44,707 nucleotides of DNA from Nitrosomonas sp. Its GTDB lineage: Bacteria; Pseudomonadota; Gammaproteobacteria; Burkholderiales; Nitrosomonadaceae. The DNA lies in the NCBI GenBank assembly GCA_017984435.1, contig JAGNZK010000023.1, positions 1 to 44,707 of the forward strand. The letters are read 5' to 3'. The notes under the pieces were generated by a model that had not been told where the DNA came from, ran no database searches, and worked only from the letters and a program-made list of their open reading frames with translations. Below are positions 11,329-44,707 of this stretch, one piece after another. A program made the position numbers and the translations under genes. Positions within the stretch are counted from its first letter, which is position 1; the number at the start of each line of letters is the position of its first letter.

Positions 11329-14300
11329 CTAAATCACCACAAAATCCGCATTGGTCATCGCCAGCCCCGCACTGAGCGTAGCAATTTGCACCACAGCACC
11401 TGCGCTACTGCCATTCGCATCGTATAGCAAGGCACCGGTTACATTGTTATAAATGATGAAATCATCGGCATCCAATGCTTGCGTACCTATTTTAAACTGA
11501 CTGACCGCCAAAGTACCTGCCGTCGTTAATGCCGTAAACGCGGCATTTTCCAGCTGGATGGTGTCATTCACGACATTGAAGTCAGTAATCGTATCAATGT
11601 GACCCTTTGTCGTAAATCTGAAGATATCGTTACCGGCGCCACCGGTTAAGCTATTCGTGCCTGCACCGCCATCCAGCGTATCATTGCCCGCTCCGCCATT
11701 TAACTGATTGGCAGCCGAATTTCCAGTCATTCCATTTGCCAGACCGTTGCCTGTGCCATTGACCGCCGCGGTGCCCGTCAGTATCAGATTCTCCACATTC
11801 GCGGGTAATGTGTAAGCCAGCCTGCTACTGACTGTATCCGTGCCCTGGTTGAGGTTCTCAGTGACGACATCACCCACGTTCTCAACCAAATAAGTGTCGT
11901 TACCCAAGCCGCCGATCATGATGTCTGCGCCAGACCACCCAATGAGAGTGTCGTCACCGCCACCACCATTCAGCGTATCGTTGCCTGCTTGGCCATTTAA
12001 CTGATTGGCGGCGCTATTTCCCGTAATGCTATTGTCCAGATCGTTACCCGTGCCATTGATTACAGATGTACCGGTTAATGTGAGGTTTTCTACATTGACG
12101 AGTAAGGTGTAAGCCAATCGGCTACTGACCGTGTCCGTGCCTTCGTTGAGATTCTCAGTGACCACATCGCCTGTATTCTCAACCAAATAAGTGTCGTTGC
12201 CTAAGCCGCCGATCATGGTATCCGCGCCAGACCACCCAGTCAGCGTATCGTCACCGCCGCCGCCATTCAGTGTATCGTTGCCTGCTTGCCCATTTAACTG
12301 ATTGGCGGCACTATTTCCTATGATGACGTTATCCAGATCATTGCCTATGCCATCGATCACCAGTGTACCGGTCAATGTCAGATTCTCTATATTGAGTGGC
12401 AATGTGTACGTGATGTTGCTGTTGACTTTATCGGTGCCTTCATTCGGGAATTCGGTGCTGACATCGCCCACATTGTTCACAACAAACGTATCATTGCCCA
12501 GCCCGCCGATCATCGTATCTGCACCACCAGCGCCATTGAGCGTATCGTTGCCAGCTCCACCTTCCAGAGCGTTATTTTGTCCGTTGCCCGTCAAAGTATC
12601 GTTGAGATCGCTGCCAATCAGATTATTGATATTGGTCAAAGTATCCAATCCTGCACCAATGGTATTTTGCTGCACTGCGGTAGCCAAGGAAACTGTGACT
12701 GGTGTGGTGGCGGAGGCATAGGTCACGGTATCGTTGGCTATCGTACCGGCCAAAACATCGTTGCCTGCTGTGCTAACCAGCAATTTGCCTGCGTTAAAGA
12801 TAGTTACTGCCACAGTCAGAGGCGCACTGATGCTAGATCCGTGAGTATCGGATGCCTTCACAATTAGAGAATAAGTACCGCGATCGTTTATGCTTGGTGT
12901 GCCGGTGATCAACCCAGAAGCTACATTAATCTGCATCCAGGTGGGCAAGGGACTGCCATTGGCAAGCAAAGCACTGTAACTCAGCGAATCGGAAGTATCC
13001 ACATCACTAAAAGATGCACTGGCATTGTAGTTCCAATCTAGCGCATCGTATTTGATGGCTTGATTCACCAAAGGCGTGATAAGAGTCGGTGCATGATTGC
13101 CAGCATTAATGTTCGATGAGTCGATGGTAGTTATCTGAGTAATAGACGCGGTAATAGAACCGACTTGTATAGGTAATACATCAGAAGATTGTCGGGATAG
13201 CATAGTACCCACGAGATCTCTTTGGTTACCTGCTTCTACGACAAATGGATCGCCAGTTATCCCTTCAAATTTAATGGCCACATCAATGTTACTCTGATCT
13301 GTTGATGATGCCATTATCTGAAATCTTTGCCCTTCAGGTACGGAAAAATTAATGGTATCACCTGCATTGACAGTTTCGGCGAGAAGCTGCAAACCACCAA
13401 AAGTATCATTTACATCGCTTCCGGCAGAACTGGATTCTGGAAGAAACACAATGCTCAGATGCTTTATGGGTGTTGTAAGTGAGGAAAAACTGAGTGTGTA
13501 TCCGAATAGAGTAAAAAGCCCGGTATCCCAAGAGCCAGGTAAAATTCCTTCAGTCCTTAAATCTGCGTCACTTTCACCTACAACATATCGACGAAGATGA
13601 TAAGTAGGGTTGTGAGTTACTGCGGTAGGAGGCTCACCATCGTTGGGTGGTTCTACAACAGCGGTGACTTGATTCCAAAACTGTGGAGAACTGCTAGGTT
13701 GATAATCCATAACCTCACTACTCGTACCCGGTACGGGATTTATATGCCTGGCACCAAAAGAATGGGCAGCTTCATGCGCAACAGTCTCAACAATACTTGA
13801 AATGGCATCGGATCCATCCATGAACACCGCGACAATATTATTATCATCATTATTGAACCGATCTAGGCCCTCATATGCCTGGCCTTCAAGACGAACTTTT
13901 GGTGTTGTACCATTCCCATCATGATCATAAGTTAGAGCAGATGAAAACCGAACGGTACTAAACGACCCAATAGTTAGTGTTGAGTCGATTACTGATATAT
14001 TGATACCACTCCGGTCAAAGACATCTTGCACGCCCTGTAAAATTTTCTGAGTGTCAGTAAAACTCCCAAGTGACATACTGCCTATCCCTCGAACAACGTC
14101 TTCTCTCCATAGATTTTTTGAAGGATCGAATACTGGTACTACATGAAAATTAAACGGTATTGGATTTGAGAAATCCAATACCAGAGCAGGCCCCAGTGCA
14201 ATTTTAGTGCCGTCAGCAAACGTTGCCAATTCCATATCAACCAGCTCATCTTCAGCTCCATTTGTTAAGTCTACAATTCGTACATGTCCCTTTGGAAGCG

Positions 14301-16479
14301 GATTTCCATCCTTGTCTTCTTTAATAATCTCAACATCACTATACGATGTCGTAAGATATCTAGCTGTATCTATACCTGTATCGCCATATAAAATATCATT
14401 GCCCGCGCCTCCATTCAAAGTATCGTTGCCTGTACCACCAAACAGAGTGTCATCACTGCTCCCGCCGCGCAGTTCATCGTTACCATCCAGTCCCTGCAAT
14501 TCAACGGGCTTATTCAGTGTTGTATCAATAATTATATGATCGTTATTTGTGCCGCCCGTTAATGTGAGGTCTCCCACAGTCTTTCCTTCAGCATCATAAC
14601 GTTGAGCATAAATGCCAAAGTCACTTCCATCCTGAGCAGAAGACGACCAGGCTACTACAAAACCACCATCGTTCAGAGCGGTAATTGATGGCTGAATCTG
14701 ATCATCAGTTGTATAAGTGTTAATCCTAAATTCACTACCTTGAGCAACTCCATGGGCATCATAACGCTGAGCATAAATGCCATAGCCACTTCCATCTTGA
14801 CCAGAAGACGACCAAGTCACTACAAAGCCACCATCTTTCAGAGCTATGGTTGATGGCTGAAGCTGATTGCCAGTTGTGTAAGTGTTGATCCTAAATTCAC
14901 TGCCTTGAACAACTCCATGGGCATCATAACGTTGGGCATAGATACCATAATCACTGCCATCTTGCCCCATAGACTGCCATACAACCACAAAGCTACCATC
15001 GGTTAGGGTAGTGATCGATGGATGATCTTGATTATTGTATGTATAAGTATTAACCCTGAATTCACTCATACCATCGACATCATAGCGCTTTGCAAAAATT
15101 CCCATGACACTGCCATCCTTATCAGGAACAGACCAAGTCACTGCAAAACCACTATTCGTTAGCGCAATAATCGATGGTGATTGGAATTCTGAGTTTGAAT
15201 AGAAAGTATTGACCCTAAATTCACTACTACGGGTCATACCATTAGCATCATAAAGTTGAGCATAAATGCCATAGCGCATAACAGACGTCCAAGCCACTGC
15301 AAACCCACCATCGGTTAGTGCAGTGATAGAAGGTTCAAATTGCGAGTCGCCTGTATAAGAATTGACCAAAAATTCATTGCCCAGTGTCACTCCATTAGCA
15401 TCATAACGTTGAGCATAGACACCATTATAACTGCCATCCTGACCATCAGACTGCCAGACAACAACAAAGTCCCCATTAGTCAGTTTCGTAATCGAAGACG
15501 CAGCTTGACTGTTAGTTGTATAGGAATTGACGCGAAACTCGTTGCCCTGTGCCGTTCCATTATTATCATAACGCTGAGCATAAATGTTATAGTCACTTCC
15601 ATCCTGGTCAGACGACCAGGTAACTACAAAACCACCATTAGTTAGTGCAATAATCGAAGATAAACTTTGATTATTAGTTGTATTGGTATTAACACGGAAC
15701 TCTTCATATTTTGTTGTAGAGTTCTGGATATCTCCATCAGAAAAATGGAAAGTTTCAATACTTGTCAGAGTATCCGCACCTTCGTCACCATTAGCAGTAT
15801 TAGTGTCGCGTACAATAATTTGATCATTTGAATCGAGCGAGAATACATAATCAGCCTGATTGCCGAAAAAGAATGCTTCGTCATTACCAGCACCACCGAC
15901 AAGTGTGTCGTTGCCTGAATCACCGGTCAGTGTGTCATCAGCAGCAGTTCCAGTTAATACATCATCGCCAATCGTACCTGTGATAATTGCCAAGATACCG
16001 TTGTAGGACAGTTGTAATATTGACGACTTAATCATACCGATTTGTGCTTCCAGTACCCAATCTCCACCCAAGTCAGCAGCACCGGTTAGATTGGTTGAAG
16101 CGGCAACATTTACTCCGGCTAATTGTGCCAGTTGTTTGATAAAAGCTTGTCCTACTTTTCCTTGTGCCACTTCACAACCATACAGAAAAATATCGCCACG
16201 ATCATTGAGGTGCTTGCCGATTTGGGCTAATGGTTCAGCATAATCCGCTAGATTGGCGCTATTTAATTCACCAGCGCCCAATGTTAATGCGCCGGGAGAA
16301 CCGTGAGAGATGATGTCGATCGCATCAATATCCGTTTTGCCTTGCAAAACAGCAGCGATTTGCATCACGCCATCTCGTTCCGCATCTAGCAGAACAACCT
16401 CAGATCCGGCTGGTAGTTGTGTAATCAGAGTATGGTAGTTGGCGACACGGGAATCAATGAAGATAATGCGGCTTGGCAT
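11329..16479 (-). CDS. Giant DUF4347 / metzincin / RTX secreted protein
   Basis: A predicted 1716-residue type I-secreted protein. Domains in order are: DUF4347 (~1-165, with SHG at His59 and YGC at Cys102); a short RTX stretch with GNDTLVGGAGND; seven repeats of about 53 residues (~255-626), each with EFRVN, GGFVVTWSS and IYAQRYD; a second RTX stretch; and a zinc-protease-like domain (~760-960). The zinc motif is HEAAHSFGARH at 902-912, matching HExxHxxGxxH, followed by SEVMDY as a possible Met-turn. Next come a cadherin/Ig-like domain (FSDVDTSDSLSYSA), three 99-residue serralysin-type RTX blocks, and a C-terminus ending in ADFVVI of the kind that carries a type I secretion signal. The ATG at 16479 has a GAGG 11 bases upstream; an in-frame GTG at 16533 has none. 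No secretion pump is encoded in the window. The protein could be a protease, an adhesin or both. Confidence 0.82.
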   Translation of the reverse strand: MPSRIIFIDSRVANYHTLITQLPAGSEVVLLDAERDGVMQIAAVLQGKTDIDAIDIISHGSPGALTLGAGELNSANLADYAEPLAQIGKHLNDRGDIFLYGCEVAQGKVGQAFIKQLAQLAGVNVAASTNLTGAADLGGDWVLEAQIGMIKSSILQLSYNGILAIITGTIGDDVLTGTAADDTLTGDSGNDTLVGGAGNDEAFFFGNQADYVFSLDSNDQIIVRDTNTANGDEGADTLTSIETFHFSDGDIQNSTTKYEEFRVNTNTTNNQSLSSIIALTNGGFVVTWSSDQDGSDYNIYAQRYDNNGTAQGNEFRVNSYTTNSQAASSITKLTNGDFVVVWQSDGQDGSYNGVYAQRYDANGVTLGNEFLVNSYTGDSQFEPSITALTDGGFAVAWTSVMRYGIYAQLYDANGMTRSSEFRVNTFYSNSEFQSPSIIALTNSGFAVTWSVPDKDGSVMGIFAKRYDVDGMSEFRVNTYTYNNQDHPSITTLTDGSFVVVWQSMGQDGSDYGIYAQRYDAHGVVQGSEFRINTYTTGNQLQPSTIALKDGGFVVTWSSSGQDGSGYGIYAQRYDAHGVAQGSEFRINTYTTDDQIQPSITALNDGGFVVAWSSSAQDGSDFGIYAQRYDAEGKTVGDLTLTGGTNNDHIIIDTTLNKPVELQGLDGNDELRGGSSDDTLFGGTGNDTLNGGAGNDILYGDTGIDTARYLTTSYSDVEIIKEDKDGNPLPKGHVRIVDLTNGAEDELVDMELATFADGTKIALGPALVLDFSNPIPFNFHVVPVFDPSKNLWREDVVRGIGSMSLGSFTDTQKILQGVQDVFDRSGINISVIDSTLTIGSFSTVRFSSALTYDHDGNGTTPKVRLEGQAYEGLDRFNNDDNNIVAVFMDGSDAISSIVETVAHEAAHSFGARHINPVPGTSSEVMDYQPSSSPQFWNQVTAVVEPPNDGEPPTAVTHNPTYHLRRYVVGESDADLRTEGILPGSWDTGLFTLFGYTLSFSSLTTPIKHLSIVFLPESSSAGSDVNDTFGGLQLLAETVNAGDTINFSVPEGQRFQIMASSTDQSNIDVAIKFEGITGDPFVVEAGNQRDLVGTMLSRQSSDVLPIQVGSITASITQITTIDSSNINAGNHAPTLITPLVNQAIKYDALDWNYNASASFSDVDTSDSLSYSALLANGSPLPTWMQINVASGLITGTPSINDRGTYSLIVKASDTHGSSISAPLTVAVTIFNAGKLLVSTAGNDVLAGTIANDTVTYASATTPVTVSLATAVQQNTIGAGLDTLTNINNLIGSDLNDTLTGNGQNNALEGGAGNDTLNGAGGADTMIGGLGNDTFVVNNVGDVSTEFPNEGTDKVNSNITYTLPLNIENLTLTGTLVIDGIGNDLDNVIIGNSAANQLNGQAGNDTLNGGGGDDTLTGWSGADTMIGGLGNDTYLVENTGDVVTENLNEGTDTVSSRLAYTLLVNVENLTLTGTSVINGTGNDLDNSITGNSAANQLNGQAGNDTLNGGGGDDTLIGWSGADIMIGGLGNDTYLVENVGDVVTENLNQGTDTVSSRLAYTLPANVENLILTGTAAVNGTGNGLANGMTGNSAANQLNGGAGNDTLDGGAGTNSLTGGAGNDIFRFTTKGHIDTITDFNVVNDTIQLENAAFTALTTAGTLAVSQFKIGTQALDADDFIIYNNVTGALLYDANGSSAGAVVQIATLSAGLAMTNADFVVI
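11753..12643 (-). repeat. Three 297-bp tandem units encoding RTX blocks
   Basis: Within the giant gene the same landmark (the codons around TGTGCCATTGA) recurs at 11753, 12050 and 12347, exactly 297 bases apart (99 codons). Each unit encodes NVENLTLTGT, a GNxLDNxITGN segment, two GGxGND calcium-binding turns and a GTDTVSS segment. The first two units are more alike than either is to the third. This is typical of serralysin-like repeat arrays that expand by unequal recombination. Confidence 0.8.
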
Positions 16480-16726
16480 AGCAATTTTTTCCTCGATCAA
16501 ATTAATAAATAGCCGGGTAGATTCAGAAGTCACTCACGACCGCTTCTTTGATAGAGAAGCGGGCTATCATCCAAACCTCGATACTTATTCGATTTTACCC
16601 GAACTCAATTGGCATAGCGTGCCAGCATACTAAATAAAGCTTAAGGCCTATAACCGGTCAAATAAGGCCGGATACTTTGCATCCATGCGCTTTGTACCGG
16701 CTTTCTTCCACCCTATTGATCTGGTT
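16480..16726. other. Region between the giant RTX gene and rpsO
   Basis: The region is the leader of the minus-strand giant gene on one side and the rpsO upstream region on the other. A hairpin with an 8-bp perfect stem (16540-16547 with 16555-16562, 7-base loop) lies about 60 bases before the giant gene's ATG. It has no T-run, so it is more likely a leader structure than a terminator. No other gene was recognised. Confidence 0.45.
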
Positions 16727-16755
16727 TGGACAAGAACCATATTAAAGAGTAAAAT
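16727..16755 (+). promoter_or_regulatory. Probable sigma-70 promoter of rpsO
   Basis: TTGGAC (-35, ~16727) and TAAAAT (-10, ~16750) are separated by 17-18 bases and lie about 50 bases before the rpsO start. Both hexamers are close to consensus and no other gene intervenes. Confidence 0.55.
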
Positions 16756-16801
16756 TCCGGCTCTTCTTTACGCTGGTAATTTAATTGGGAAATAATTTAT
16801 T

Positions 16802-17071
16802 ATGTCAGTCACAATCGACCAAAAAGCACAGGTAGTGCGCGATTATCAAAGAGCCGATGGAGATACTGGCTCTCCGGAAGTCCAAGTTGCGCTATTAACC
16901 ACCCGAATCAATGACTTGATCGGGCATTTCAAAACACATGTCAAGGATCATCATTCTCGTAGAGGTCTGTTACGCATGGTGAGCCGTCGCCGTAAGTTGC
17001 TTGATTATCTTAAGCGCCGCAATGTTGGTACCTATCAAACGCTGATTGAGCGCCTTGGTTTGCGCAAATAA
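16802..17071 (+). CDS. rpsO: 30S ribosomal protein S15
   Basis: The 89-residue protein binds 16S rRNA early in small-subunit assembly. The family pattern is complete: an N-terminal helix, [20 protein letters not shown], the rRNA-binding segment [16 protein letters not shown] and [13 protein letters not shown]. Length matches S15 exactly. It lies directly upstream of pnp, the classical conserved pairing, and the two genes are probably co-transcribed. S15 usually represses its own translation through its leader mRNA; no specific structure was assigned here. Confidence 0.98.
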
Positions 17072-17130
17072 ATGCTTTCCGTAAATCCGGCTGGCAGCAA
17101 ATTAAGTCGATCATTTTCCATGCAAATTAC

Positions 17131-17157
17131 CAATCATCCCGAAATAGGGATTGATTG
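17131..17157 (+). promoter_or_regulatory. Hairpin in the rpsO-pnp intercistronic leader
   Basis: CAATCATCCC pairs with GGGAT-TGATTG around a six-base loop, giving a 10-bp stem with one bulged T. There is no T-run. It lies 42 bases before the pnp start. In E. coli the pnp leader hairpin is cut by RNase III and then used by PNPase to control its own mRNA. This structure occupies the equivalent place, but the mechanism here is inferred. Confidence 0.55.
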
Positions 17158-17199
17158 TGATTTGGCATTTGGAAAAATTTATCAGAAAAGGATTGTTAA

Positions 17200-19323: not shown

Positions 19324-19369
19324 ATATAGAATAATGTTGTTTTCTTATTCTGTTATATTCCATTAAATA

Positions 19370-19402
19370 AAAAAACCCTGTTCGACACAAAACAGGGTTT
19401 TT
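19370..19402. terminator. Bidirectional terminator between pnp and dksA
   Basis: A-run plus CCCTG pairs with CAGGG plus T-run across a 12-base loop, so a T-run follows the stem on both strands. It sits between the converging pnp and dksA genes and should stop transcription from both sides. Confidence 0.88.
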
Positions 19403-19442
19403 TTATTTCCACCACTAATGCAAACCTAGTATGCGCCACAAC

Positions 19443-20196: not shown

Positions 20197-20232
20197 ATTT
20201 ATGCTCTAAAGTTTTACAATAAGTCCGACTTG

Positions 20233-20309: not shown

Positions 20310-20388
20310 CAAATTCTATATCGCGTGGATACATTGCTCAATTCAGAGTTTGTGTATTGTGTAAATAACAAGTCTTTTTCTTTTTTGT

Positions 20389-31746: not shown

Positions 31747-34700
31747 ATGAAGAATCCCGGATACCTTATTGACATCATCGAACATAGCGATTTGATCATC
31801 TATATTAAGAACAGTCTTAATCAATTTCTGTTTGTAAACAAAAAATTCGAAATAATTTTTAACCTTCAACGCAATCATATTTTAGGCAAGACTTGCACCG
31901 AGCTTTTTCCTAAAAATATTGCCGCCATCCTGAATCGAAATGATCATAAGGTAATACAGTCTGGGAAAACTATTGAGTACGAGGATTATTTGAATCTTCC
32001 TCAATACCAACGTTATCTCATTTGCTCCAAATTCCCGCTGCATGATGCGTTCTGGCAAGAAACGGTTATTTGCGCCATATTAACTGATATTACCGAATGC
32101 AAGCAGGCCGAACTGTCACTGAAAAACATCAAGATTCATTATCGCAGCCTGTTTGAAGAATCGCATGATGCTCAGTTGATCATTATCCCGCCGACATGGG
32201 AGTTTCAGATCGCCAATCCGGCAGCTGTCAAGATGTTCGGTTTATCCGAGATTATGGATTTTATAACCTTGGAACTAAATCACTGGAACCTGTCACCCGA
32301 GCGACAACCGGACGGACGTCCTTCCATGGATGCCGCGTTCGCTATGATTGAAATAGCTCTACGCGAAGGATCGCACTATTTTGAGTGGCGGCACAAGCGA
32401 GTAAATGGAGAAGAGTTTCCCTGCATGGTGTTGCTGACCCGCATGCAATCCAACGGAGAGGATTACCTGCAATGTTCAATACGGGACATTACAGAGCAAA
32501 AACGAATTGAATTGGCATTGCGCTGTAGTGAAGAACGCTTATCCCATGCTTTCCAAGCCGCTAATGATGGTCTTTGGGATTTCAACCTGGAAACACAAAC
32601 CGTCTATTACTCGCCACGCTGGAAAGAAATGCTGGGCTACGACCCCGATGAATTCACGTCGGATCTTGATACTTGGACAATGCTGGTACATCCGGAAGAC
32701 AGGGAAAAGGCACTGGCACTGCTCAATGGTTATCTGGAAGGACGCCTGGATACTTACAGAGCGGAATTTCGTATGCACCATAAAGAAGGTCATTGGATTT
32801 ACATTCTGTCACGAGGCATCTTGGCGCACGATAGTCAAGGCAGACCCCTTTCACCCCGGCGCATCATCGGCACGCATCTGGATATTACCGAACAGAAACA
32901 AGCGGAAAATCAATTACGTGAGAGCGAAGCTCGTTACCGTACCCTGTTTGAAGGCTCTTATGATGCCATGATAATATTTAGGGCGAATCCATTGAAATTA
33001 GTCACCTGCAACTCCGCCGCTCTGGAAATGTTCGGTGTGCCCGATTTAGAAACATTTGCTTTACTGGAACCGCTGGATCTCTTTCCGGAAAAGCAGAATG
33101 ATCAGGCTTTATTGCAGGATAAACTGCAGCAAGTCACTGAATTGGCCATACGTAATGGCTTTCACTATTTTGAATGGATACACAAACGTTTGCATGGGGA
33201 TACCTTCCCGGCAACAGTGATGCTGAGCCGCTCTGAAATCAATGGTGAATTATGTCTGCAAGCAACAGTTCGTGATATTACCCAACAAAAGAATGCTGAA
33301 GAACAGCTCAGATTAGCTGCCGGGGTGTTCGCACACGCCCGTGAAGGCATCATGATTATGAATGCCGATTTCATTCTTATTAATGTCAACGCCGCTTTCA
33401 CGTATATCACCGGTTATGAGCACGATGACGTCATAGGCAAAAAACCGGGTATCCTTAAATCCGATCGACACAGTATAGATTTCTACGCCAGTATGTATCA
33501 ATCCCTGGACGGAAAAGGACATTGGTATGGAGAAATCTGGAATCGTCGCAAAAATGGTGAAGTATATGCCGCTTTGCTCAATATCAGTCAGATTCTTAGC
33601 AAGGATGGCGAAACTCGTCATTTTGTGGGAATTTTTACCGACATTACCTATATAAAAACCCATCAACGTGAACTTGAACATCTTGCTCATTATGACATCT
33701 TAACCGGTTTGCCCAATCGCGTGCTACTGACTACACGGCTACAACAAGCTATGGCACTCACAAAACGACTAAACAAATTCATTGCTGTCGTCTTTATTGA
33801 TCTGGATGGCTTTAAAGCCATCAATGATCGATATGGCCATGAAACTGGTGATAAACTGCTGATTAACATTGCTAAAAATATGAAATACTCATTTCGTAAA
33901 GTAGACACCCTGGCGCGTATTGGTGGCGATGAGTTTATTGCAGTATTCCAAAGCCTTAACTCAAAAACAGACTGCGAACCATTTGTTCGCCGTATTCTTA
34001 CCTCTGTAACCAAACCCATCGTCATTAATGAACAAACCCTCAACATCACTGCCAGCATCGGCATCAGCCTTTACCCACAAGACGAAGACGCATCTCCCGA
34101 TTTGCTACTGCGCCAGGCTGACCAAGCAATGTATGAAGCAAAACTGGCTGGCAAAAATCGCTTTCACTTCTTTGATGCGGCGCATGACCAACTGATTCGG
34201 AACCAAAACCTCAATCTTAAACGTATTAAACTGGCCTTGGATCAACGGGAATTTGTCCTCTACTATCAACCCAAGATCAATTTGCGTACAGGACATGTCT
34301 TTGGTGTCGAAGCTTTAATCCGCTGGCAACATCCGGAAAAAGGATTACTGGCACCGGCATCCTTCTTGCCGAACCTGGAAAATCACCCATTCAATATTGA
34401 GTTGGGTGAGTGGGTTATCGATACTGCACTCACACAAATCGAAACATGGCAGACGATGGATATCCATATGCAAATTAGCGTCAATGTCGGCGCACAACAA
34501 CTACAACAATCTGACTTCTTTACTAAATTATCTATCTGCCTAGAAAATCATCCCCATGTTCAACCGCATCAGCTAGAGCTGGAAGTTCTGGAAACCAGTG
34601 CTCTGGAAGACATTACTCATGTCACAAATCTGATTGAATCATGCAATAAAATCGGCGTCGGGTTTGTATTAGACGATTTTGGAACGGGCTATTCTTCACT

Positions 34701-35370
34701 GAGCTATCTTAAACGGTTACCCATCCGCTTGATCAAAATCGACCAAAGCTTTGTACGCGATATGCTTAAGGATAAGGAAGATCTGGCAATCATTAAAGGC
34801 GTATTAGATCTGGCAAGCGTGTTTCACCGCAATGTAGTTGCGGAAGGCATTGAAACCGCTCAGCATCATCGTTTACTCATCAGCCTTGGTTGCGAATTAG
34901 GGCAAGGATATGGTATTGCCCAGCCTATGCCGACGGAAGCGTTTCCAGCGTGGCTATCCGCCTGGCGGCCTGATCCTGACTGGTTATTGGTACCCATCGT
35001 CAATCATGATGACCTATCGTTACTATTCGCCAAGGTAGCCCATGACGCTGCTCTGATGTCAGATTCAACCCATTTGAACGGCGAGCGATCAACACCCAAT
35101 CCGATCAAATTATCCGATTGCTTGCTCAGTCAATGGCTGGAAGGTGAAGGCCAACAACGATTCGGCGCTACTTCCTGGTACCAAGGCATAACTGCATTGC
35201 ACCTTCAAACACATGCGTTAGCAACCCAGTTAGCGGAATCATCCAGAAACAATGATCATTGTGTTATAGACACACAATCTATTGATTATATTAATACGGA
35301 GAGGCAATTGACCATTGAGATTGAGAAATTATTTTGTTCTGCACCAACCAAAAAACACCCGTTAAGTTAG
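31747..35370 (+). CDS. Five-PAS GGDEF-EAL c-di-GMP enzyme with CZB-like C-terminus
   Basis: A 1207-residue soluble sensor of the c-di-GMP network. Five PAS-like segments occupy about 1-655; PAS 2 (from 131) and PAS 4 share the layout of RSLFEESHDA and RTLFEGSYDA. The GGDEF motif is intact (726-730). RKVD lies exactly five residues before it, so the inhibitory I-site is present. The EAL motif (855-857), DDFGTGYSSLSYL and KIDQSFV suggest an active phosphodiesterase too. Residues ~1120-1160 read CLLSQWLEGEGQQRFG with two later histidines, which resembles the CZB zinc-binding domain. No transmembrane helix is seen. It lies upstream of the DUF4347 gene in the same direction and shares its promoter motif. 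Confidence 0.9.
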   Translation: MKNPGYLIDIIEHSDLIIYIKNSLNQFLFVNKKFEIIFNLQRNHILGKTCTELFPKNIAAILNRNDHKVIQSGKTIEYEDYLNLPQYQRYLICSKFPLHDAFWQETVICAILTDITECKQAELSLKNIKIHYRSLFEESHDAQLIIIPPTWEFQIANPAAVKMFGLSEIMDFITLELNHWNLSPERQPDGRPSMDAAFAMIEIALREGSHYFEWRHKRVNGEEFPCMVLLTRMQSNGEDYLQCSIRDITEQKRIELALRCSEERLSHAFQAANDGLWDFNLETQTVYYSPRWKEMLGYDPDEFTSDLDTWTMLVHPEDREKALALLNGYLEGRLDTYRAEFRMHHKEGHWIYILSRGILAHDSQGRPLSPRRIIGTHLDITEQKQAENQLRESEARYRTLFEGSYDAMIIFRANPLKLVTCNSAALEMFGVPDLETFALLEPLDLFPEKQNDQALLQDKLQQVTELAIRNGFHYFEWIHKRLHGDTFPATVMLSRSEINGELCLQATVRDITQQKNAEEQLRLAAGVFAHAREGIMIMNADFILINVNAAFTYITGYEHDDVIGKKPGILKSDRHSIDFYASMYQSLDGKGHWYGEIWNRRKNGEVYAALLNISQILSKDGETRHFVGIFTDITYIKTHQRELEHLAHYDILTGLPNRVLLTTRLQQAMALTKRLNKFIAVVFIDLDGFKAINDRYGHETGDKLLINIAKNMKYSFRKVDTLARIGGDEFIAVFQSLNSKTDCEPFVRRILTSVTKPIVINEQTLNITASIGISLYPQDEDASPDLLLRQADQAMYEAKLAGKNRFHFFDAAHDQLIRNQNLNLKRIKLALDQREFVLYYQPKINLRTGHVFGVEALIRWQHPEKGLLAPASFLPNLENHPFNIELGEWVIDTALTQIETWQTMDIHMQISVNVGAQQLQQSDFFTKLSICLENHPHVQPHQLELEVLETSALEDITHVTNLIESCNKIGVGFVLDDFGTGYSSLSYLKRLPIRLIKIDQSFVRDMLKDKEDLAIIKGVLDLASVFHRNVVAEGIETAQHHRLLISLGCELGQGYGIAQPMPTEAFPAWLSAWRPDPDWLLVPIVNHDDLSLLFAKVAHDAALMSDSTHLNGERSTPNPIKLSDCLLSQWLEGEGQQRFGATSWYQGITALHLQTHALATQLAESSRNNDHCVIDTQSIDYINTERQLTIEIEKLFCSAPTKKHPLS

Positions 35371-35656: not shown

Positions 35657-38600
35657 TTGTTAATAGGTATTATACATAAGGCTATAAATATCCAAACAAT
35701 ACAACCTCAACAATCTATTTTATTCATTGACAGTGGCGTAGCCGATTACCAAACTCTGATTAACGGCGTTAAAGCGGGAACAAAAGTTGTCATACTCAAT
35801 ACCGATCAGGATGGTGTACAGCAAATCACTGACGTACTGAATCAATCTTCCAATGTAGACAGTGTCCATATCCTGTCTCATGGCAATCAAGCCGAAGTGA
35901 TGCTTGGCAACGTCGCGTTGAATCGCAGTTCATTCGCTGCCTACCAGCCTGCTTTACAATCCTGGCGCAACGCGCTCTCAGAAACAGCAGAAGTTGTACT
36001 GTACGGCTGCCATGTGGCCAAAGGCGCTATCGGGCAACAATTCATCCGCCAGCTAAGCGCAACGATCCAAGCAAGTATCACCGCTTCTGTCGATCTGACC
36101 GGTGCTAAATCTCTCGGAGGAAACTGGGAACTCGCATTCCATTATGGACAAATCCATCATTCGCAGATTTTTGCACAAAATGCATTAGACAATTATGTCG
36201 GCATCTTAGCGACTGAAACCATTTCGTTTGATGCAGAGGAATTATCCAGCGCAAAAACTGATGTATCAGTTTACAGTTATACCAAAGCAACAAAAGGCTA
36301 TAGCGATTTAACCATCAAACTGACCGACTCGGATACTGACCAAGATTTCACTTCATTAAAATTGATGTCGGATAAAAGAGATGGTCTATGGGATGCTTCA
36401 TATCTATATGGGTATCCATCCGGAATAATCATTCGTGATGACAGTAGCTACAAAACGGGGACCTGGTTTGCATTTGCCACAGTAAAGGGCGACGAGTTTG
36501 ATTTGGTCTCAATAGATATCAGTGAAGCAAAAGGTAGCTTAGATACAGTAGAAATTCTTGGATACCGGGATGGAAAACAAGTTACCAGTGAAGACCCTAT
36601 TCCGTTGAAGACCGCCGGCACGACAGAATTCCAGACCATCAGTTTATCCACTGCTTTTGATAATGTGGATGAAGTGCGTATCCGTCATATCTCAAGCGGA
36701 ACATTTAACTACAAGGATTTTCCCGGTCAATTTGGCATGGTGTATGGAAACTTTGTTTTTCAACCGGCACTCACTCCCACCATCACGTCTGCCACTTACG
36801 ACGCCGGTGATAATTACCTGATAGTAACCGGCACCAACATGACTGCCACAGTAGGCGCTGCCAACGATATCGATGTCACCAAACTGACCCTGACCGGACA
36901 AGGCGGCGCCACGTATACGCTCACCTCGGCTAGCGTTGAAATCACATCGGCAACTGGATTTACCGTAACCCTGAATGCCACAGATCAAACGCATGTGGAA
37001 GGATTAGTGAATAAGAATGGCACTTCCGCCGTCGATGCCACAACGTTTAATATCGCCGCTGCGGCTGACTGGAATCCCTCCCAGACCGGTAATGTAGATA
37101 CCACCGGGAATGGGATTACCGTCAGTAATGTACAAACCCCCACCATCACGTCCGCCACTTACGATGCCAGCACCGGCGCATTAGTGGTAACCGGAACCAA
37201 CTTCGTAAACGCCAATGGTGCTGCCAACGATATCACCGCCAATAAATTCACGTTCACCGGTGAAGGTGGAACAACTTATACATTGACCGATTCCTCCAAT
37301 GTCGAGATTACTTCCGGCACGGCTTTCACCATCACATTGAGTGCGACGGACAAAGCCGCGATCAATCAGATTAGCAATAAGAATGGCACTTCATCAACGA
37401 GTGGCACCACCTATAACCTAGCTGCCGCCGATGACTGGAACACGGTGATCGGCAATGCGAATATCGCTGATCTCACCGGTAATGGCATTACTGTCAGTAA
37501 CGTTGCCGCACCAGTTATTATATCCGCCACTTACGATGCCAGTACCGACGCATTAGTGGTGACCGGCACAGGCTTATTGAAATTAAACGGCGTTACCAAC
37601 GATATCGTCGCCAACAAGTTCACTTTCACCGGTGAAGGTGGGGCAACTTATACATTAACCGATACTTCAAATGTCGAAATCACTTCCGGCACGGCTTTTA
37701 CACTTACATTGAGTGCGACGGATAAAGTTGGCATCAACCAAATCACCAACAAAAACGGCACCAGCTCTACCGGCGGCACGACCTACAATCTGGCTGCCGC
37801 AGAAGATTGGGCGGCTGGGGCTGACGCTGCGGTTGTCGTCGCCGATCTCACCGGCAATGGCATGACCGTCTCCAATGTGGCCGTTCCCACGATTACATCG
37901 GCGACTTATGACGCTTCCACCGGTGCATTGGTAGTCACCGGCTCAAACTTCCTGAGTACAAGCGGTGCTACCAACGATATCGTCGCCAACAAGTTCACTT
38001 TCACCGGTGAAGGTGGGGCAACTTATACATTAACCGATACTTCAAATGTCGAAATCACTTCCGGCACGGCTTTTACACTTACATTGAGTGCGACGGATAA
38101 AGCCGCTGTGAATCTGCTCCTGAATGAGGACGGCACGGCATCGAGCGATGCAACCACCTACAATGTCGCCGCGGCAGAGGATTGGGCGGCCGGTGCGGAC
38201 GCTGCGGTTGTCGTCGCCGATCTGGCAGGCAACGGCATAACCGTTACCATTCCACCCGCTTCATCCGGCGGTGGCGGCAACCCTGCACCGACTCCCACGA
38301 TTATTGATGGCGCCACTACCAGCACAACAACGCAATCGGATGGCACAGTGATCACCACTGTTTTGCCGATCAGTACTGATCGCCAAGATGATCCGAACAG
38401 CTTATTCCCTCAATATGCAGATGTCCCTGTCATTCGCAATTCAAATGGCGATACCTTGTTGACTGTCAGTCTGCCTGTCGGTGTCGGTTTGAATATTGCC
38501 GGCAAATTACAATTGCTGAATATACATGAGGCTACCGATGATCTAACTCAGCGCATTGAGCAAGAAACCGGCTCAGACAGTGCTTTAACTCAGGAAATTA

Positions 38601-40042
38601 TCAATCGCGCCAAGGATTTTCTCTCGACATTGGCCACCGATGAGCACGTCACTGTGCAGACCATCACGCCATCGATCAATAATAACCAATCACCCGATGT
38701 ACCCATTATTGTTACCGGATCGAATATCAATAACGACGATAAGCAAATTTTGATCATCGATGCCAGAAACCTCCCATCCGGCGCTATCATTCAACTGGAC
38801 AACGTTGCATTCGCACTCATTATCGGCGCTGTTCGGGTTGTCGGCGGCAACGGTGAGAACTTTGTTGTCGGCGATAATCAAAATCAATATATCGTGCTGG
38901 GTGCCGACGACGATATTTTGTTTGGTAGCGGCGGTAATGATACGGTCGGCAGCTTGGCCGGTAATGATCAGATTTCCGGCGACGTGGGTAATGATATTGT
39001 TTTCGGTGGCGCCGGCAATGACTTGTTGAGTGGCGGCACCGGCAATGATCAACTCAATGGTGGCTTGGGCTTTGACAGCGCATCTCAGGATGGGCAATTA
39101 TCGGACTATCAGGTTGAAACGCATGGTAGCGTAATCACGCTCACGCAAAGCAACGGTGAAGTCGATACATTGACCGATGTCGAGTCAATCCGTTTTGCCA
39201 CCGGCCCCAGTTTGTCCATCGCATACTCCGCCATTGAAGCGGTTGCACACCATTTGGTCAAAACCTGGCTGGGACGTGATTTGACCGTTATTGAGGGTGA
39301 TGCCGTACAAAACTGGCAAACAGCCACTACGGACGACATTTTAACTGCTTTTCACGACCTGCCTGAAGCAGCCGATCTACAAGACAAAACCAACAGCGAA
39401 TTACTGGCAGGCTTGGCAACCGACTTAACTATTGTTCAGTTGGATACAGCTCTTGAGATCATTGCTGGCGATAGTAACGATGAAGGGTATTTATCGTTAG
39501 GGTTAGGGTTGAAAGTAGACGGCGGCAAAGGTCATGATGTATTGCATATGCTGGGCGGTCGTGAAGATGTTCATCTGGCGTCAGTCAATGATCGTCTGGA
39601 ATTAACCCGCCTCAATGATGGCGCCATGCTGAGCCTCAGGAATACCGAAATGATTGCTTTTGACAGCGGTGAAACCGTGGTAATTGCACACAATCAGACC
39701 GAAGATATCCTAGCACGCCTGGTACATAGTTTCTTTGATCGGGATGCTACCCCGGAAGAATGGCAATCAGGGCGGGAAGCGCTGGATGTTCAGGTCAGTC
39801 ATCGCGCTATTTTGGATTGGTTTAAGCAGCATGCCGGTTTGGATGATCTGTCCAACACGGATTATGTGCAAACGATTTATACCCAGACATTAGGGCGTGC
39901 TGCGACGAGTGATGAACTCGACCAACAATTATTCCGCTTGGATAGTAATCAGGTGGATCGTGAATGGCTAGCGGTTGAGATCGCTCAGAGTACCGAAGCT
40001 GCCGTTCATTTGGTAGGCAGCGTCATGTTGCAAGAGGGATGA
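35657..40042 (+). CDS. DUF4347 RTX protein with ~123-residue beta repeats
   Basis: A predicted 1461-residue type I-secreted or surface protein. DUF4347 covers ~15-180 with SHG (His75) and YGC (Cys118). A beta-sandwich-like domain (~184-370, [18 protein letters not shown]) follows. Four repeats of about 121-125 residues come next (~373-868), each beginning near TSATYDA and containing [10 protein letters not shown] and a NKNGTSS-type segment. After a glycine-rich linker (PASSGGGG), a segment of unknown fold and RTX repeats ([16 protein letters not shown], ~1065-1140), the C-terminus carries DUF4214-like sequence ([22 protein letters not shown]). The only in-frame start is TTG; the paralogue at 42214 has an ATG at the equivalent place, where this gene reads ATA. 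The protein is probably an adhesin or matrix protein. Confidence 0.8.
36822..37371 (+). repeat. 550-bp block identical to 43331-43880
   Basis: Reading both copies base by base shows no difference over 550 bases, covering most of repeat 1 and the first two thirds of repeat 2. The flanking DNA differs: upstream, the codons before TAGTAACCGG are diverged; downstream, changes begin at the next base and remain sparse. The offset is constant at 6509 bases. Confidence 0.9.
37594..37727 (+). repeat. 134-bp internal repeat, identical to 37969-38102
   Basis: The segment encoding [16 protein letters not shown] through LSATDK occurs twice in this gene without a difference, 375 bases (125 codons) apart, marking repeats 3 and 4 as recent copies of one another. 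Confidence 0.88.
37969..38102 (+). repeat. 134-bp internal repeat, second copy
   Basis: Exact copy of 37594-37727, in repeat 4 of the same protein; the sequences after it diverge ([11 protein letters not shown] against [11 protein letters not shown]). Confidence 0.88.
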
Positions 40043-40208
40043 GTGTAAATTGACCGTTCGCCGAACAACACACGTTCCTCAGCGGAACTAAACATGGCGG
40101 ATTGAGGTACTGCTACGATACTTAGCACTTTGTATTAAAAACTAGGTAATATTTATCGTGGCAGTTGTTATCTATGAAATTAAAATCTTAATGAAAAGGA
40201 GATAATCT

Positions 40209-40937
40209 ATGAAACTCACCAAGAAAACACAAGGTTTTTTCACTGTTACGACAGCTATAGCACTCTTTGCTGCAATGCCTGACAACGCTACTGCAGGTAT
40301 GGAACCATTTATTGGAGAGATTAACTACGTTGCTTTTAATTACGCGCCTCAGGGTTGGCTCCCATGTAATGGACAATTACTGTCAATTAATCAATATCAA
40401 GCGGTGTTTGCCTTGCTCGGCACCACATACGGCGGTGATGGCACGACCACCTTTGCTTTGCCCGACATGCGCGGCAAGGTTCCCGTACACCAAGGGCAAT
40501 CTGCAGGAGGCTCAAACTTTGCGATGGGCCAAACAGCGGGTTCCGAGAATGTTACGCTGACGGTTAATCAAATGCCTACTCATTCTCATCCAGTCGATGC
40601 GACTTCGACTTCCACCTCTGTGGTCGCTCCCGGCGCATCCGCGACTTCGACATTGAAAGCAGTCAATGCGGCTGGTGATACAAATTCGCCAGGAGGTGGC
40701 GCAATTGCAATGTCTCCAGCGCTGACCAAGATATATGCCTCGGCAACTGCACCCAGTGTGAGTATGAATCAAGCTTCTATTGAAACCTCGCTCAGTGGTG
40801 TGAATGTGGCGACTACGACAATTACCACGGCGACTGCCGGTACTACCGGAGGATCTCAACCGTTCTCAATCATGCAACCATACACCACGATTAATTGCAT
40901 CATTGCAATCGATGGAATCTTTCCTTCGCGGCCCTAG
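40209..40937 (+). CDS. Secreted phage tail collar-domain (microcystin-dependent-protein-like) protein
   Basis: The 242-residue protein has a signal peptide (FFTVTTAIALFAAM, cleaved near NATAG). The tail-collar domain follows: EPFIGEINYVAFNYAPQGW, PCNGQLLSINQYQAVFALLG, TTYGGDGTTTFALPDMRGKVPV and HQG. A threonine/alanine/serine-rich central section with weak repeats leads to a conserved end (GGSQPFSIMQPYTTINCIIA). Related proteins are found on phage tails and as bacterial proteins named for microcystin dependence. Export here points to a cell-surface or matrix role and not to a phage. An AGGAG site precedes the ATG. It lies 166 bases after the DUF4347 gene, in the same direction. Confidence 0.88.
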   Translation: MKLTKKTQGFFTVTTAIALFAAMPDNATAGMEPFIGEINYVAFNYAPQGWLPCNGQLLSINQYQAVFALLGTTYGGDGTTTFALPDMRGKVPVHQGQSAGGSNFAMGQTAGSENVTLTVNQMPTHSHPVDATSTSTSVVAPGASATSTLKAVNAAGDTNSPGGGAIAMSPALTKIYASATAPSVSMNQASIETSLSGVNVATTTITTATAGTTGGSQPFSIMQPYTTINCIIAIDGIFPSRP

Positions 40938-41051
40938 ATAGCTGAATTACTTTACACTCTACTCAGGAGAGTCATCGGATTAATTGCACAGTCATCGGGT
41001 CAGTCCGACATTCACGGCAATTAACCGGTGGTTCCCGTTAACAAAACAAAA

Positions 41052-42014
41052 ATGAAAAATGCTGTGTTGATATTTCTGTCTATCGCAATGCTGTTGCCTG
41101 GAGAAAACGCCAGTGCGCAAACAGCAGGCACTCAGATCATGAAAGATGCCCAATCAGCACTGGCAACAGGAGATTATGAAAAAGCATTTGCCGGATATCA
41201 TGCAGCAGCCGACAATGATAAAAACGCCCTGGCACAATTTTCTCTGGGTCTTTTTTATCAGAACGGCTGGGGACGGTCAGTGGATAAAGTTGCTGCCTGC
41301 CAATGGTTCGAGAAAGCGGCACAAGGTGGTATTCCGGCAGCCCAGCATCTGACCGGCGTTTGTTTTGAAGAAGGCACACATCATTCGGCAGATCCCGCAG
41401 TCGCCGCGGATTGGTTTCAGAAAGCAGCCCAGGCAGGACATATTCATTCCTATTGCCATCTCGGCAATCTCTACATGACCGGCAAGGGATTTCCCCATGA
41501 TCCCATCAAAGCGCTTGCGCTTTGTCATCCTGCCGCGCAGCAGGGTTCGATTCCTGCACAAATATGGATGGGCAAATTTTATTTGCAAGGCGATGCATCC
41601 ATTCAGGACATACAAGAAGCTTACCGCTGGTTTGAAGCAGCCGCGCAAAAACAAAGCCCTGAAGCCTTTTATTATTTAGGCATCATTATTGATAAAGGCT
41701 TATCACAAGGACACACACCCCAGAAAGCCAGACAAATGTTTGAACAAGCCGCCGTACTAAAATACGTGCCGGCTTATTTTCAGATAGGAAAAAGTTTTTA
41801 TACCGCAGAACCGGATCCTGAAACACACCAATTATCGGCAGAGCATCTGGCAAAAGCTTATGTATGGCTTTCAGCCACCGTGCAACGGCCAGGAAATCCG
41901 GAAGAGATCAGTGCAGCAAAAGCGATGCTGCAGCAAATATTAGTCGTGATGCCAACGGCATGGCTTGCTGAACTTGATCATAAAGTCGCTCGGCATTTAC
42001 TGGAAAGCTATTGA
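41052..42014 (+). CDS. Exported Sel1-like repeat protein
   Basis: The 320-residue protein starts with a signal peptide (MKNAVLIFLSIAMLLPG, cleavage near ASAQ). About six Sel1/TPR-like repeats follow, with the AxxWFxKAAxxG pattern in CQWFEKAAQGG, ADWFQKAAQAG and YRWFEAAAQ. Such proteins act as periplasmic adaptors or scaffolds. A GTG eight codons upstream (41028) is possible, but the ATG gives a cleaner signal peptide; neither has a good ribosome site. It lies between the tail-collar gene and the third DUF4347 gene, in the same direction. Confidence 0.8.
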   Translation: MKNAVLIFLSIAMLLPGENASAQTAGTQIMKDAQSALATGDYEKAFAGYHAAADNDKNALAQFSLGLFYQNGWGRSVDKVAACQWFEKAAQGGIPAAQHLTGVCFEEGTHHSADPAVAADWFQKAAQAGHIHSYCHLGNLYMTGKGFPHDPIKALALCHPAAQQGSIPAQIWMGKFYLQGDASIQDIQEAYRWFEAAAQKQSPEAFYYLGIIIDKGLSQGHTPQKARQMFEQAAVLKYVPAYFQIGKSFYTAEPDPETHQLSAEHLAKAYVWLSATVQRPGNPEEISAAKAMLQQILVVMPTAWLAELDHKVARHLLESY

Positions 42015-42016
42015 AC

Positions 42017-42082
42017 ATATGTAGTATTTATTACCAATACATGTAATGTTTATTACCAATATATGTAATATTCATTGCAAAG
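42017..42082 (+). repeat. Three 22-bp tandem repeats
   Basis: ATATGTAGTATTTATTACCAAT, ACATGTAATGTTTATTACCAAT-like and ATATGTAATATTCATTGCAA-like units (shown shortened; 22 bases each at 42017, 42039 and 42061) follow one another right after the Sel1 stop codon. The third is the most diverged. Repeats and spacing do not fit CRISPR. Confidence 0.7.
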
Positions 42083-42213
42083 CCATTAAGCACATGTGAT
42101 TATTGCTATGCCCTGTTAATAGAATAAATAAGCAATTGTTTTACTGAACTAATCATGAAATAACGGTTTAATCAGCAGCTCCTCAATGAAACTGACAATA
42201 TAGGTATGAAACG

Positions 42214-44707
42214 ATGACTACTCAAATAATACAATCCGAGCAATCTATTTTATTCATTGACAGTGGCGTAGCCGATTACCAAACTCTGATTAACGGCGTT
42301 AAAGCGGGAACACAGGTTGTCATACTGAATGCTGAGCAAGATGGTGTACAGCAAATTACTGACGTGCTGAATCAATCCTCCAATGTAGACAGTGTCCATA
42401 TCCTATCTCATGGCAATCAAGCCGAAGTGATACTTGGCAACACCTCGTTGAATCACAGTTCATTCGCTGCCTACCAGCCTGCTTTACAATCCTGGCGCAA
42501 CGCGCTGTCAGAAACAGCAGAAGTTATACTGTACGGCTGCCATGTAGCCAAAGACACTATCGGGCAACAATTCGTCCGCCAGCTCAGCGCAACGATCCAA
42601 GCGAGTATCGCTGCTTCTGTCGATCTGACCGGTGCAAAATCTCTCGGAGGAAACTGGGAACTCGCATTCCATTGTGGGCAAATCCATCATTCGCAGATTC
42701 TTGCACAAAGCGCGTTAGACAGCTATGCCGGCACCCTGGCGACGGAAACGATTACATTCATTGAAAATGAGCTTTCAGGTGAACCGCTTGCCAGCTATAC
42801 CAAAGGAACCACCGGCTACGGCAATCTAACCATCAAAGGCACTGACTCCGGCACCGGAACAGCTTTTGGCTCATTAGTCAATTTATCCAACCCTGCCGGT
42901 TTATACGATTCAGATTCTCAGTTTGGACCGGGTGGTTCGGTAGGTATCGGATTAAACGATGGACTTAGTAACGCCACGACAGGCACTTGGTTTGTCTTTG
43001 CCACTGCCAACGGCGGAGAATTTGATCTGGTGTCGTTAAAAATGACCGAAGGCAATGGTGTATTCAGTTCAATGCAAGCCGTTGGCTTCCGCAATGGATT
43101 ACAAGTCGCCACCCAGTCACTAACGCTCACTACTGGTACAACGCAGCAAACCCTCAGCATGTCTTCCGACTTTGATAATGTTGACGAAATCCGTGTCCGG
43201 CAAACGACGTCCGGTTTTTTCGATAGCGGAATGCCCGGGCAGGATGGCATATTGTTCGAGAATTTTATTTTTCAGCCGATTCCCGTCACCATTACATCCG
43301 CCACTTACGATGCCAGCACCAATTCACTGGTAGTAACCGGCACCAACATGACTGCCACAGTAGGCGCTGCCAACGATATCGATGTCACCAAACTGACCCT
43401 GACCGGACAAGGCGGCGCCACGTATACGCTCACCTCGGCTAGCGTTGAAATCACATCGGCAACTGGATTTACCGTAACCCTGAATGCCACAGATCAAACG
43501 CATGTGGAAGGATTAGTGAATAAGAATGGCACTTCCGCCGTCGATGCCACAACGTTTAATATCGCCGCTGCGGCTGACTGGAATCCCTCCCAGACCGGTA
43601 ATGTAGATACCACCGGGAATGGGATTACCGTCAGTAATGTACAAACCCCCACCATCACGTCCGCCACTTACGATGCCAGCACCGGCGCATTAGTGGTAAC
43701 CGGAACCAACTTCGTAAACGCCAATGGTGCTGCCAACGATATCACCGCCAATAAATTCACGTTCACCGGTGAAGGTGGAACAACTTATACATTGACCGAT
43801 TCCTCCAATGTCGAGATTACTTCCGGCACGGCTTTCACCATCACATTGAGTGCGACGGACAAAGCCGCGATCAATCAGATCGTCAATAAAAATGGCACTT
43901 CATCAACGAGTGGCACCACCTATAACTTAGCTGCCGCCGATGACTGGAACACGGTGATCGGCAATGCGAATATCGCTGATCTCACCGGTAATGGCATTAC
44001 TGTCAGTAACGTTGCCGCACCAGTTATTACATCCGCCACTTACGATGCCAGTACCGGCGCATTAGTGGTGACCGGCACAGGCTTATTGAAATTAAACGGC
44101 GCTACCAACGATATCGTCGCCAACAAGTTCACTTTCACCGGTGAAGGTGGGGCAACTTATACATTAACCGATACTTCAAATGTCGAAATCACTTCCAGCA
44201 CGGCTTTTACGCTTACATTGAGTGCGACGGATAAAGTTGGCATCAACCAAATCACCAACAAAAACGGCACCAGCTCTACCGGCGGCACGACCTACAATCT
44301 GGCTGCCGCGGAAGATTGGGCGGCTGGGGCTGACGCTGCGGTTGTCGTCGCCGATCTCACCGGCAATGGCATGACCGTCTCCAATGTGGCCGTTCCCACG
44401 ATTACATCGGCGACTTATGACGCTTCCACCGGTGCATTGGTAGTCACCGGCTCAAACTTCCTGAGTACAAGCGGTGCTACCAACGATATCGTCGCCAGCA
44501 AGTTCACTTTCACCGGTGAAGGTGGGGCAACTTATACATTGACCGATACTTCAAATGTCGAAATCACTTCCAGCACGGCTTTTACGCTTACATTGAGTGC
44601 GACGGATAAAGTTGGCATCAACCAAATCACCAACAAAAACGGCACCAGCTCTACCGGCGGCACGACCTACAATCTGGCTGCCGCGGAAGATTGGGCGGCT
44701 GGGGCTG
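42214..44707 (+). CDS. DUF4347 protein, paralogue of the gene at 35657 (runs off the window)
   Basis: At least 831 residues are visible and the reading frame is open to the last base. DUF4347 covers ~5-170 with SHG (His66) and YGC (Cys109), followed by a beta-sandwich-like domain (~172-355, GTWFVFATANGGEFDLVS) and then the same ~123-residue repeats as the gene upstream. Four repeats are seen before the window ends, and the last differs from that in the upstream gene, so the array here may be longer. The ATG at 42214 has an AGG-containing leader. The N-terminal domain is about nine tenths identical to the upstream paralogue, the middle domain is more diverged, and the repeats are nearly identical. 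The C-terminus, and thus any RTX or secretion signal, is outside the window. Confidence 0.85.
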   Translation, partial: MTTQIIQSEQSILFIDSGVADYQTLINGVKAGTQVVILNAEQDGVQQITDVLNQSSNVDSVHILSHGNQAEVILGNTSLNHSSFAAYQPALQSWRNALSETAEVILYGCHVAKDTIGQQFVRQLSATIQASIAASVDLTGAKSLGGNWELAFHCGQIHHSQILAQSALDSYAGTLATETITFIENELSGEPLASYTKGTTGYGNLTIKGTDSGTGTAFGSLVNLSNPAGLYDSDSQFGPGGSVGIGLNDGLSNATTGTWFVFATANGGEFDLVSLKMTEGNGVFSSMQAVGFRNGLQVATQSLTLTTGTTQQTLSMSSDFDNVDEIRVRQTTSGFFDSGMPGQDGILFENFIFQPIPVTITSATYDASTNSLVVTGTNMTATVGAANDIDVTKLTLTGQGGATYTLTSASVEITSATGFTVTLNATDQTHVEGLVNKNGTSAVDATTFNIAAAADWNPSQTGNVDTTGNGITVSNVQTPTITSATYDASTGALVVTGTNFVNANGAANDITANKFTFTGEGGTTYTLTDSSNVEITSGTAFTITLSATDKAAINQIVNKNGTSSTSGTTYNLAAADDWNTVIGNANIADLTGNGITVSNVAAPVITSATYDASTGALVVTGTGLLKLNGATNDIVANKFTFTGEGGATYTLTDTSNVEITSSTAFTLTLSATDKVGINQITNKNGTSSTGGTTYNLAAAEDWAAGADAAVVVADLTGNGMTVSNVAVPTITSATYDASTGALVVTGSNFLSTSGATNDIVASKFTFTGEGGATYTLTDTSNVEITSSTAFTLTLSATDKVGINQITNKNGTSSTGGTTYNLAAAEDWAAGA
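43331..43880 (+). repeat. 550-bp block identical to 36822-37371
   Basis: Second copy of the block with no base difference, inside the repeat array of the third DUF4347 gene. Beyond it similarity stays very high, with scattered substitutions. Confidence 0.9.

Follow-up and report, generated by a model that had tools for sequence, protein, structure and literature searches.

DUF4347 domains heading giant adhesin-like proteins of Nitrosomonas as predicted C80-like cysteine peptidases, and their association with a TolC/adaptor/HlyD/M50-HlyD gene set

What does a DUF4347 domain do at the head of a very long, adhesin-like protein? Three such proteins are encoded in the window, the 44,707-nucleotide stretch of Nitrosomonas sp. 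DNA that was analysed. Protein A (1734 aa; 16533-11329, minus strand) has a GTG start and an in-frame ATG at residue 19, and its N-terminal DUF4347 domain is followed by RTX-type repeats and an Ig-like domain. Protein B (1461 aa; 35657..40042, plus strand) carries an N-terminal DUF4347 domain, long repeats, two RTX stretches and a C-terminal DUF4214 domain. Protein C (at least 831 aa; 42214..44706, plus strand) runs past the contig end, and its N-terminal DUF4347 domain precedes repeats resembling those of B. All three open reading frames exceeded the PF14252 (DUF4347) cut-off of 24.6 bits, with 187.7, 189.4 and 190.9 bits. In the genome search the domains themselves scored 192.8 bits in A (16018..16467, minus strand), 194.1 bits in B (35717..36208, plus strand) and 194.3 bits in C (42247..42738, plus strand). 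A, B and C add three new members to a predicted family that is already known. B and C were 84% identical over the domain and are close paralogues, so that the three window proteins amount to about two independent observations.

The sequence-only reading had reported SHG and YGC motifs in all three domains with the His and Cys exactly 43 residues apart, and this was confirmed. The predicted catalytic pair is His77 (16303..16305) and Cys120 (16174..16176) in A, both on the minus strand; His75 (35879-35881) and Cys118 (36008-36010) in B; and His66 (42409-42411) and Cys109 (42538-42540) in C, these four on the plus strand. The residues of A had been called His59 and Cys102, a numbering that starts from the in-frame ATG, and the span given for the observation (11329-44707) takes in unrelated genes too. 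Seven DUF4347 domains were found in the genome from which the window comes (hereafter the own genome), in six genes of which one holds a tandem pair, and both residues were present in all seven. With every own-genome domain keeping the dyad, the shared motif is more than chance.

The same pair was followed in an alignment of 164 unique rows, drawn from loci in public genomes, viral contigs and plasmids. Both residues were present in 152 of the 164 rows, while eight carried a substitution in one or both and four were without one or both columns, namely the partial rows of L054 and L103 and both halves of a stop-interrupted domain in L134. After removal of gappy and more than 80%-identical rows, 141 non-redundant domains were left, in which the His was kept in 136 and the Cys in 138. 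Loss of either residue in most homologues had been named as evidence against a protease; retention was found instead. YGC was part of one of the patterns used to find the genome-contig and viral loci, and Cys conservation is biased there. In the groups that were not picked by the YGC pattern, both residues occurred in 71 of 74 rows (own genome 8, divergent loci 32, plasmids 4, and 30 top scorers from the phylum, which are biased towards the consensus). The three exceptions were a Cys-to-Ser copy (the upstream tandem copy of L132) and the two halves in L134.

Upstream tandem copies had lost both residues in L078 and L099 and the Cys in L132, with the second copy intact in each case, and the upstream copy was without the conserved tail in all five tandem loci examined (L008, L070, L078, L099 and L132). 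In L073, L095 and L122, which have a single domain in the available DNA, the His was replaced by Lys, Glu or Asn and the Cys was kept. The tandem domains of L070 (L070:5572-6456) have a full dyad in neither copy; in copy 1 the His is kept and Ser replaces the Cys, and in copy 2 the Cys is kept and Glu replaces the His.

Clan CD peptidases have a His followed by Gly and, later in the chain, a Cys preceded by Ala or Gly, and SHG and YGC in A, B and C show this order. The relationship to clan CD proposed in the sequence-only reading gained further sequence support from three sources: C80 as runner-up family, a CHAT profile match and homology to Tce1. At E up to 1, Peptidase_C80 was the recurrent runner-up Pfam family. 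It was matched by 20 of 84 members, against 3 for the next family, and, when members were trimmed to the core, by 29 of 89, against 2; the best E was 1.3e-4, and the two sets overlap. Window A scored 17.3 to 18.0 bits (E 0.006 and 0.0038) against the C80 (PF11713) cut-off of 23.8 bits, and the domain is therefore named C80-like, not C80. None of five divergent DUF4347 members matched C80 in a scan at E up to 10. In hhalign, a profile of nine CHAT domains (PF12770; nine of the 14 listed matches) scored 35.2 with a probability of 48%, compared with 18.6 for the best of 60 column shuffles and 21.8 for the reversed profile, and the alignment placed HG on HG and GC on AC. CHAT, a clan CD family, has the dyad in aligned position and differs in architecture; no CHAT match was found in the own genome. 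The caspase family C14 (PF00656; profile from 12 of 22 listed matches) gave no profile signal, with 20.2 against 26.8 for the best shuffle.

A search of solved structures with the sequence of window A alone returned no match. Two alignment profiles, A3 (84 sequences) and the core profile A4 (89 of the 141 domains, without degenerate copies and others), were also used. The profiles matched 9qpe_G, which is named a DUF4347 domain-containing protein, with E-values of 0.0015 and 0.00026, and its THG and YGC were aligned. Designed TIM barrels were matched as well, by way of a single short segment that repeats; in the A4 search one of these, at 2.5e-5, outscored 9qpe_G at 2.6e-4, indicating that E-values of this type are soft. 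The barrels were discounted as relatives, as no single stretch passes alone. PMC13323088, which cites 9QPE, presents Tce1 (PA0256) and Tce2 as putative cysteine proteases. By its AlphaFold3 models both can be aligned with the protease domain of TcdB, including the dyad; His186 and Cys240 of Tce1 are placed like the TcdB dyad. The resolved residues of Tce1 in that source, 110-310, equal the 201-residue length of chain G, and chain G was therefore taken as Tce1. PA0256 contains DUF4347 according to PMC8262886, and PMC13323088 does not use the terms DUF4347, caspase or C80. The toxin protease domains belong to family C80 of clan CD (PMC2900308). The domains studied here resemble those of MARTX and clostridial glucosylating toxins in having the His before the Cys, in the HG and GC motifs and in being part of giant secreted proteins. 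The His-Cys spacing is 43 here and 45 in TcdB by the residue numbers given in PMC13323088; the profile similarity to C80 is recurrent but weak, with window A under the cut-off. These results support the prediction that DUF4347 is here a small clan CD cysteine-peptidase domain with C80 as its nearest family, its fold being read from its relatives.

The idea of a protease head is not new; it is about 17 years old and matches the CPDadh proposal of 2009, so that the protease reading has been a prediction since then. Pei, Lupardus, Garcia and Grishin (2009, Protein Sci 18:856) reportedly described CPDadh as a group of peptidase domains related to C80, located N-terminally in putative bacterial proteins of cell-cell interaction, and mentioned inactive eukaryotic members. 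That paper is not known to include an activity test or a link to an M50-HlyD gene set; DUF4347 and CPDadh are presumably the same family. The architecture, the dyad and the C80 similarity found here agree with the definition of CPDadh as an N-terminal C80-related His/Cys domain on a putative adhesin. PMC2900308 cites the CPDadh proposal of Pei et al. In the literature searched, no paper was found that tested the protease reading on an adhesin, and none that joined the DUF4347 domain with the term caspase-like.

If the domain is active, where might it cut? C80 enzymes cut after Leu (strict P1) and are activated by InsP6, and the MARTX site lies 30 residues before strand 1 (PMC4357240). A MARTX-style site about 30 residues ahead of the domain was ruled out for A and C, which have at most 22 and 17 upstream residues in the open frame. 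Of the 136 domains whose N-terminus is bounded, 24 have fewer than 30 upstream residues, making the MARTX geometry impossible there. With no room for such a site in A, C and others, a cut in cis would lie behind the domain. The final strongly conserved residue at that end is Leu181 of A (Leu163 from the ATG; 15991..15993, minus strand), in S-Y-N-G-I-L-A. A terminal Leu was present in 134 of 141 domains; of the other seven, six had no aligned residue at this position and L118 has Ala. An aromatic residue stood four positions before the Leu in 132 of the 134, and the next residue was Ala in 69 and Pro in 16. The distance from a conserved Trp to this Leu was 27 residues in 102 of the 134, and conservation stopped sharply past it. 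The Leu was also kept in the dyad-lost members L070 (copy 2), L073, L095 and L122. From its sequence context, a Leu-Ala cleavage site at this position is conceivable and distinctly doubtful. The simpler reading, favored over a flexible cut site, is that the domain ends structurally at this Leu, given the Pro that follows it in 16 domains, the prevailing spacing of 27 and the abrupt end of conservation.

An LEPR-XLL-like motif was noted upstream of the domain among L041-L120. Of the 99 non-redundant domains preceded by 60 residues or more, 76 had an LEx[RK]-type pattern of the LEPR-XLL motif (NF012209). As a general Arg cleavage site it was rejected, the motif being absent from the window proteins when inspected by eye. 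LEPR-XLL also occurs in surface proteins without DUF4347. Self-processing in some form is plausible by analogy with MARTX, and we consider that it could as readily prove right as wrong.

LapA-type adhesins are giant surface proteins in which the N-terminal part controls release, and they are freed by a separate enzyme, LapG (family C93). The proteins studied here are alike in size, location and the controlling role that their N-terminal part would have; the difference is that LapG is an enzyme apart. No LapG-type protease (PF06035) was found in the own genome, which is 92% complete. Were the DUF4347 domain active, a processing enzyme would be built into many giant surface proteins, and bacteria without LapG would have their own means of shedding or maturing adhesins.

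On contig C28 of the own genome (L008:4752-20000 and L162:2043-6494), genes for a TolC-like protein, an RND-type adaptor, HlyD and M50-HlyD flank the gene of a 3361-aa protein that has a tandem pair of DUF4347 domains. A GGDEF gene lies in between, the set contains no ABC ATPase, and it does not adjoin the window genes. Similar runs were found on plasmids. Downstream of the DUF4347 giant gene, plasmids of E. coli and Burkholderia carry one gene of the TolC family, one for an adaptor and two for HlyD proteins. The last gene of the set (checked for Burkholderia) encodes an M50 peptidase fused to HlyD; the beginning of the run was seen in a Hafnia plasmid. In L156, L157 and L160, from E. coli and Hafnia plasmids, the DUF4347 gene is 13.4 kb long and TolC and adaptor genes come next. 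The domain of A matched 122 plasmid records, 19 of them from Escherichia, and phage records yielded no match. The DUF4347 copy on an Azospirillum plasmid had no such transport genes within 15 kb on either side.

Among 20 sampled DUF4347 genes, an M50-HlyD relative was nearby in ten and all four components in eight; one had an ABC-type open reading frame and a HlyD relative instead. Across 299 genomes of the phylum, DUF4347 was present in 85, an M50-HlyD match in 84 and both in 71 (odds ratio 78, p 1e-40 in a Fisher test, which ignores kinship). DUF4347 carriers came from 31 families and M50-HlyD carriers from 29, and a genome with both was found in 25 families. The M50-HlyD match was missing in 14 of the 85 DUF4347 carriers. 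The ABC exporter LssB, counted at E up to 1e-180 (100 genomes, 93 of them over the cut-off), was present in 44 of the 85 carriers, with an odds ratio of 3.0. At most three candidates per genome were scored for M50-HlyD and LssB, and gene numbers are lower bounds. In a set of 26 genomes, 15 of 20 M50-HlyD places and none of 21 LssB places lay within 35 kb of a DUF4347 domain. Counted the other way, 16 of 46 DUF4347 places were within 35 kb of M50-HlyD, or 16 of 26 in the M50-HlyD-bearing genomes; this count used all 46 listed DUF4347 places, and the M50 place of one genome (G186) was taken from the neighbourhood survey. No HlyB- or LssB-type ABC exporter over the cut-off was found in the 92%-complete own genome, where the best ABC match was a cyanophycin-associated transporter.

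No report of the TolC/adaptor/HlyD/M50-HlyD set with DUF4347 was found in the library and with the terms searched. Within that scope, the tracking of DUF4347 with this ABC-ATPase-less set looks unreported and seems to be the new part of the analysis. Of all the results, this companion set most merits follow-up; through the association the export route of the DUF4347 proteins can be tested directly, and transport without the usual ABC motor may be what it represents. We propose tentatively, and at somewhat less than an even chance, that the DUF4347 giants are substrates of a dedicated ABC-less exporter of the envelope (TolC-like channel, RND-type adaptor, HlyD and an intramembrane M50 metalloprotease fused to HlyD) and that the C80-like and M50 proteases jointly time export and release. 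This would be a type-I-like pathway with two proteases, also found on the E. coli and Burkholderia plasmids.

For the locus as a whole, the best explanation is that the DUF4347 head is an active C80-like clan CD peptidase acting on its own giant protein during TolC-type export, and we give it an even chance of being correct. The domain in A, B and C, with its intact His-Gly/Gly-Cys dyad, would have a Tce1-/C80-like fold and catalytic activity. It would act on the giant protein to which it belongs, cutting at the C-terminal boundary of the domain or immediately past it, during passage through a TolC-type channel, and the adhesin-like remainder would be matured or released. Export would run through the set on contig C28, beside the two-DUF4347 giant. 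In favor of this explanation are the PF14252 match, the conserved dyad, the C80 and CHAT similarity, 9qpe_G/Tce1, the near-N-terminal position on long proteins, the co-occurrence and adjacency with M50-HlyD, and the own-genome searches that found neither a HlyB/LssB exporter over the cut-off nor LapG. Counted against it are the C80 scores of window A below the cut-off, the divergent members without a C80 match, the missing C14 signal and the soft structural E-values. The Tce1 result in yeast given below, the eight of 164 rows with a lost residue or residues (single-domain L073 and L095 among them), the spacing and Pro pattern at the tail Leu, and the location of the transport set away from the window genes were also counted against it.

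The strongest alternative keeps the peptidase fold and makes it mainly an export or docking leader for the M50-HlyD set, with cleavage left to the M50 protease or not occurring. The odds ratio of 78 and the closeness of 15 of 20 M50-HlyD places to a DUF4347 domain suit such a leader, as do the loss of the dyad in some single-domain members (L073 and L095) and the upstream tandem copies that are degenerate or without the C-terminal end in L070, L078, L099, L132 and L008. However, the predicted catalytic pair is strongly kept across the 141 non-redundant domains, which would be unexpected for mere docking, and 14 of 85 carrier genomes had no M50-HlyD match. We regard a docking leader as a credible but rather unlikely explanation.

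An active peptidase might also cut other proteins, in neighboring cells, a host or its own envelope, and leave its own chain intact. Tce1 and Tce2 are delivered proteins, and in PMC13323088 the yeast toxicity of Tce2 was alleviated by a change of the predicted active-site Cys, while Tce1 had no measurable effect in yeast. However, both are small T6SS cargo loaded in Hcp rings, with dyad spacings of 54 and 50, and they are not heads of giant adhesins. Here the domain heads very long proteins, unlike small cargo, and cleavage of foreign targets appears improbable.

An inactive structural module that keeps His and Cys for folding, metal or disulphide reasons is judged to be no more probable than cleavage of foreign targets. 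The A3 profile matched residues 291-466 of PDB 11xu_A1, an ECT2-like protein, over nearly its full length (E 0.0085) in a segment without both catalytic residues; 11xu was not among the matches of the core profile A4. The segment may be one of the inactive eukaryotic CPDadh relatives that the 2009 paper is said to mention, and such relatives, together with the A3 match, would fit an inactive module. The HG and GC motifs of clan CD nevertheless contain the His and Cys of the present family, and both residues align with the CHAT dyad, which counts against an inactive module. A fold unrelated to clan CD, with the motifs matching by chance, is very improbable, for although the single-sequence C80 similarity is weak and absent from all five divergent members, two clan CD families (C80 and CHAT) and a published homologue agree.

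Between B and C lies a gene for a phage-tail Collar-domain protein (40209..40937, plus strand), the sole PF07484 match found in the own genome. Collar relatives were near five of the 20 sampled DUF4347 genes, showing that this is a recurrent neighbor, and on the Burkholderia plasmid an annotated tail fiber protein is encoded immediately upstream of the DUF4347 gene. Just ahead of B, the window encodes a PAS-GGDEF-EAL protein (31747-35370), and the GGDEF protein within the C28 transport set is at L008:16360-17895. These neighbors make a link between cyclic-di-GMP and adhesin display possible.
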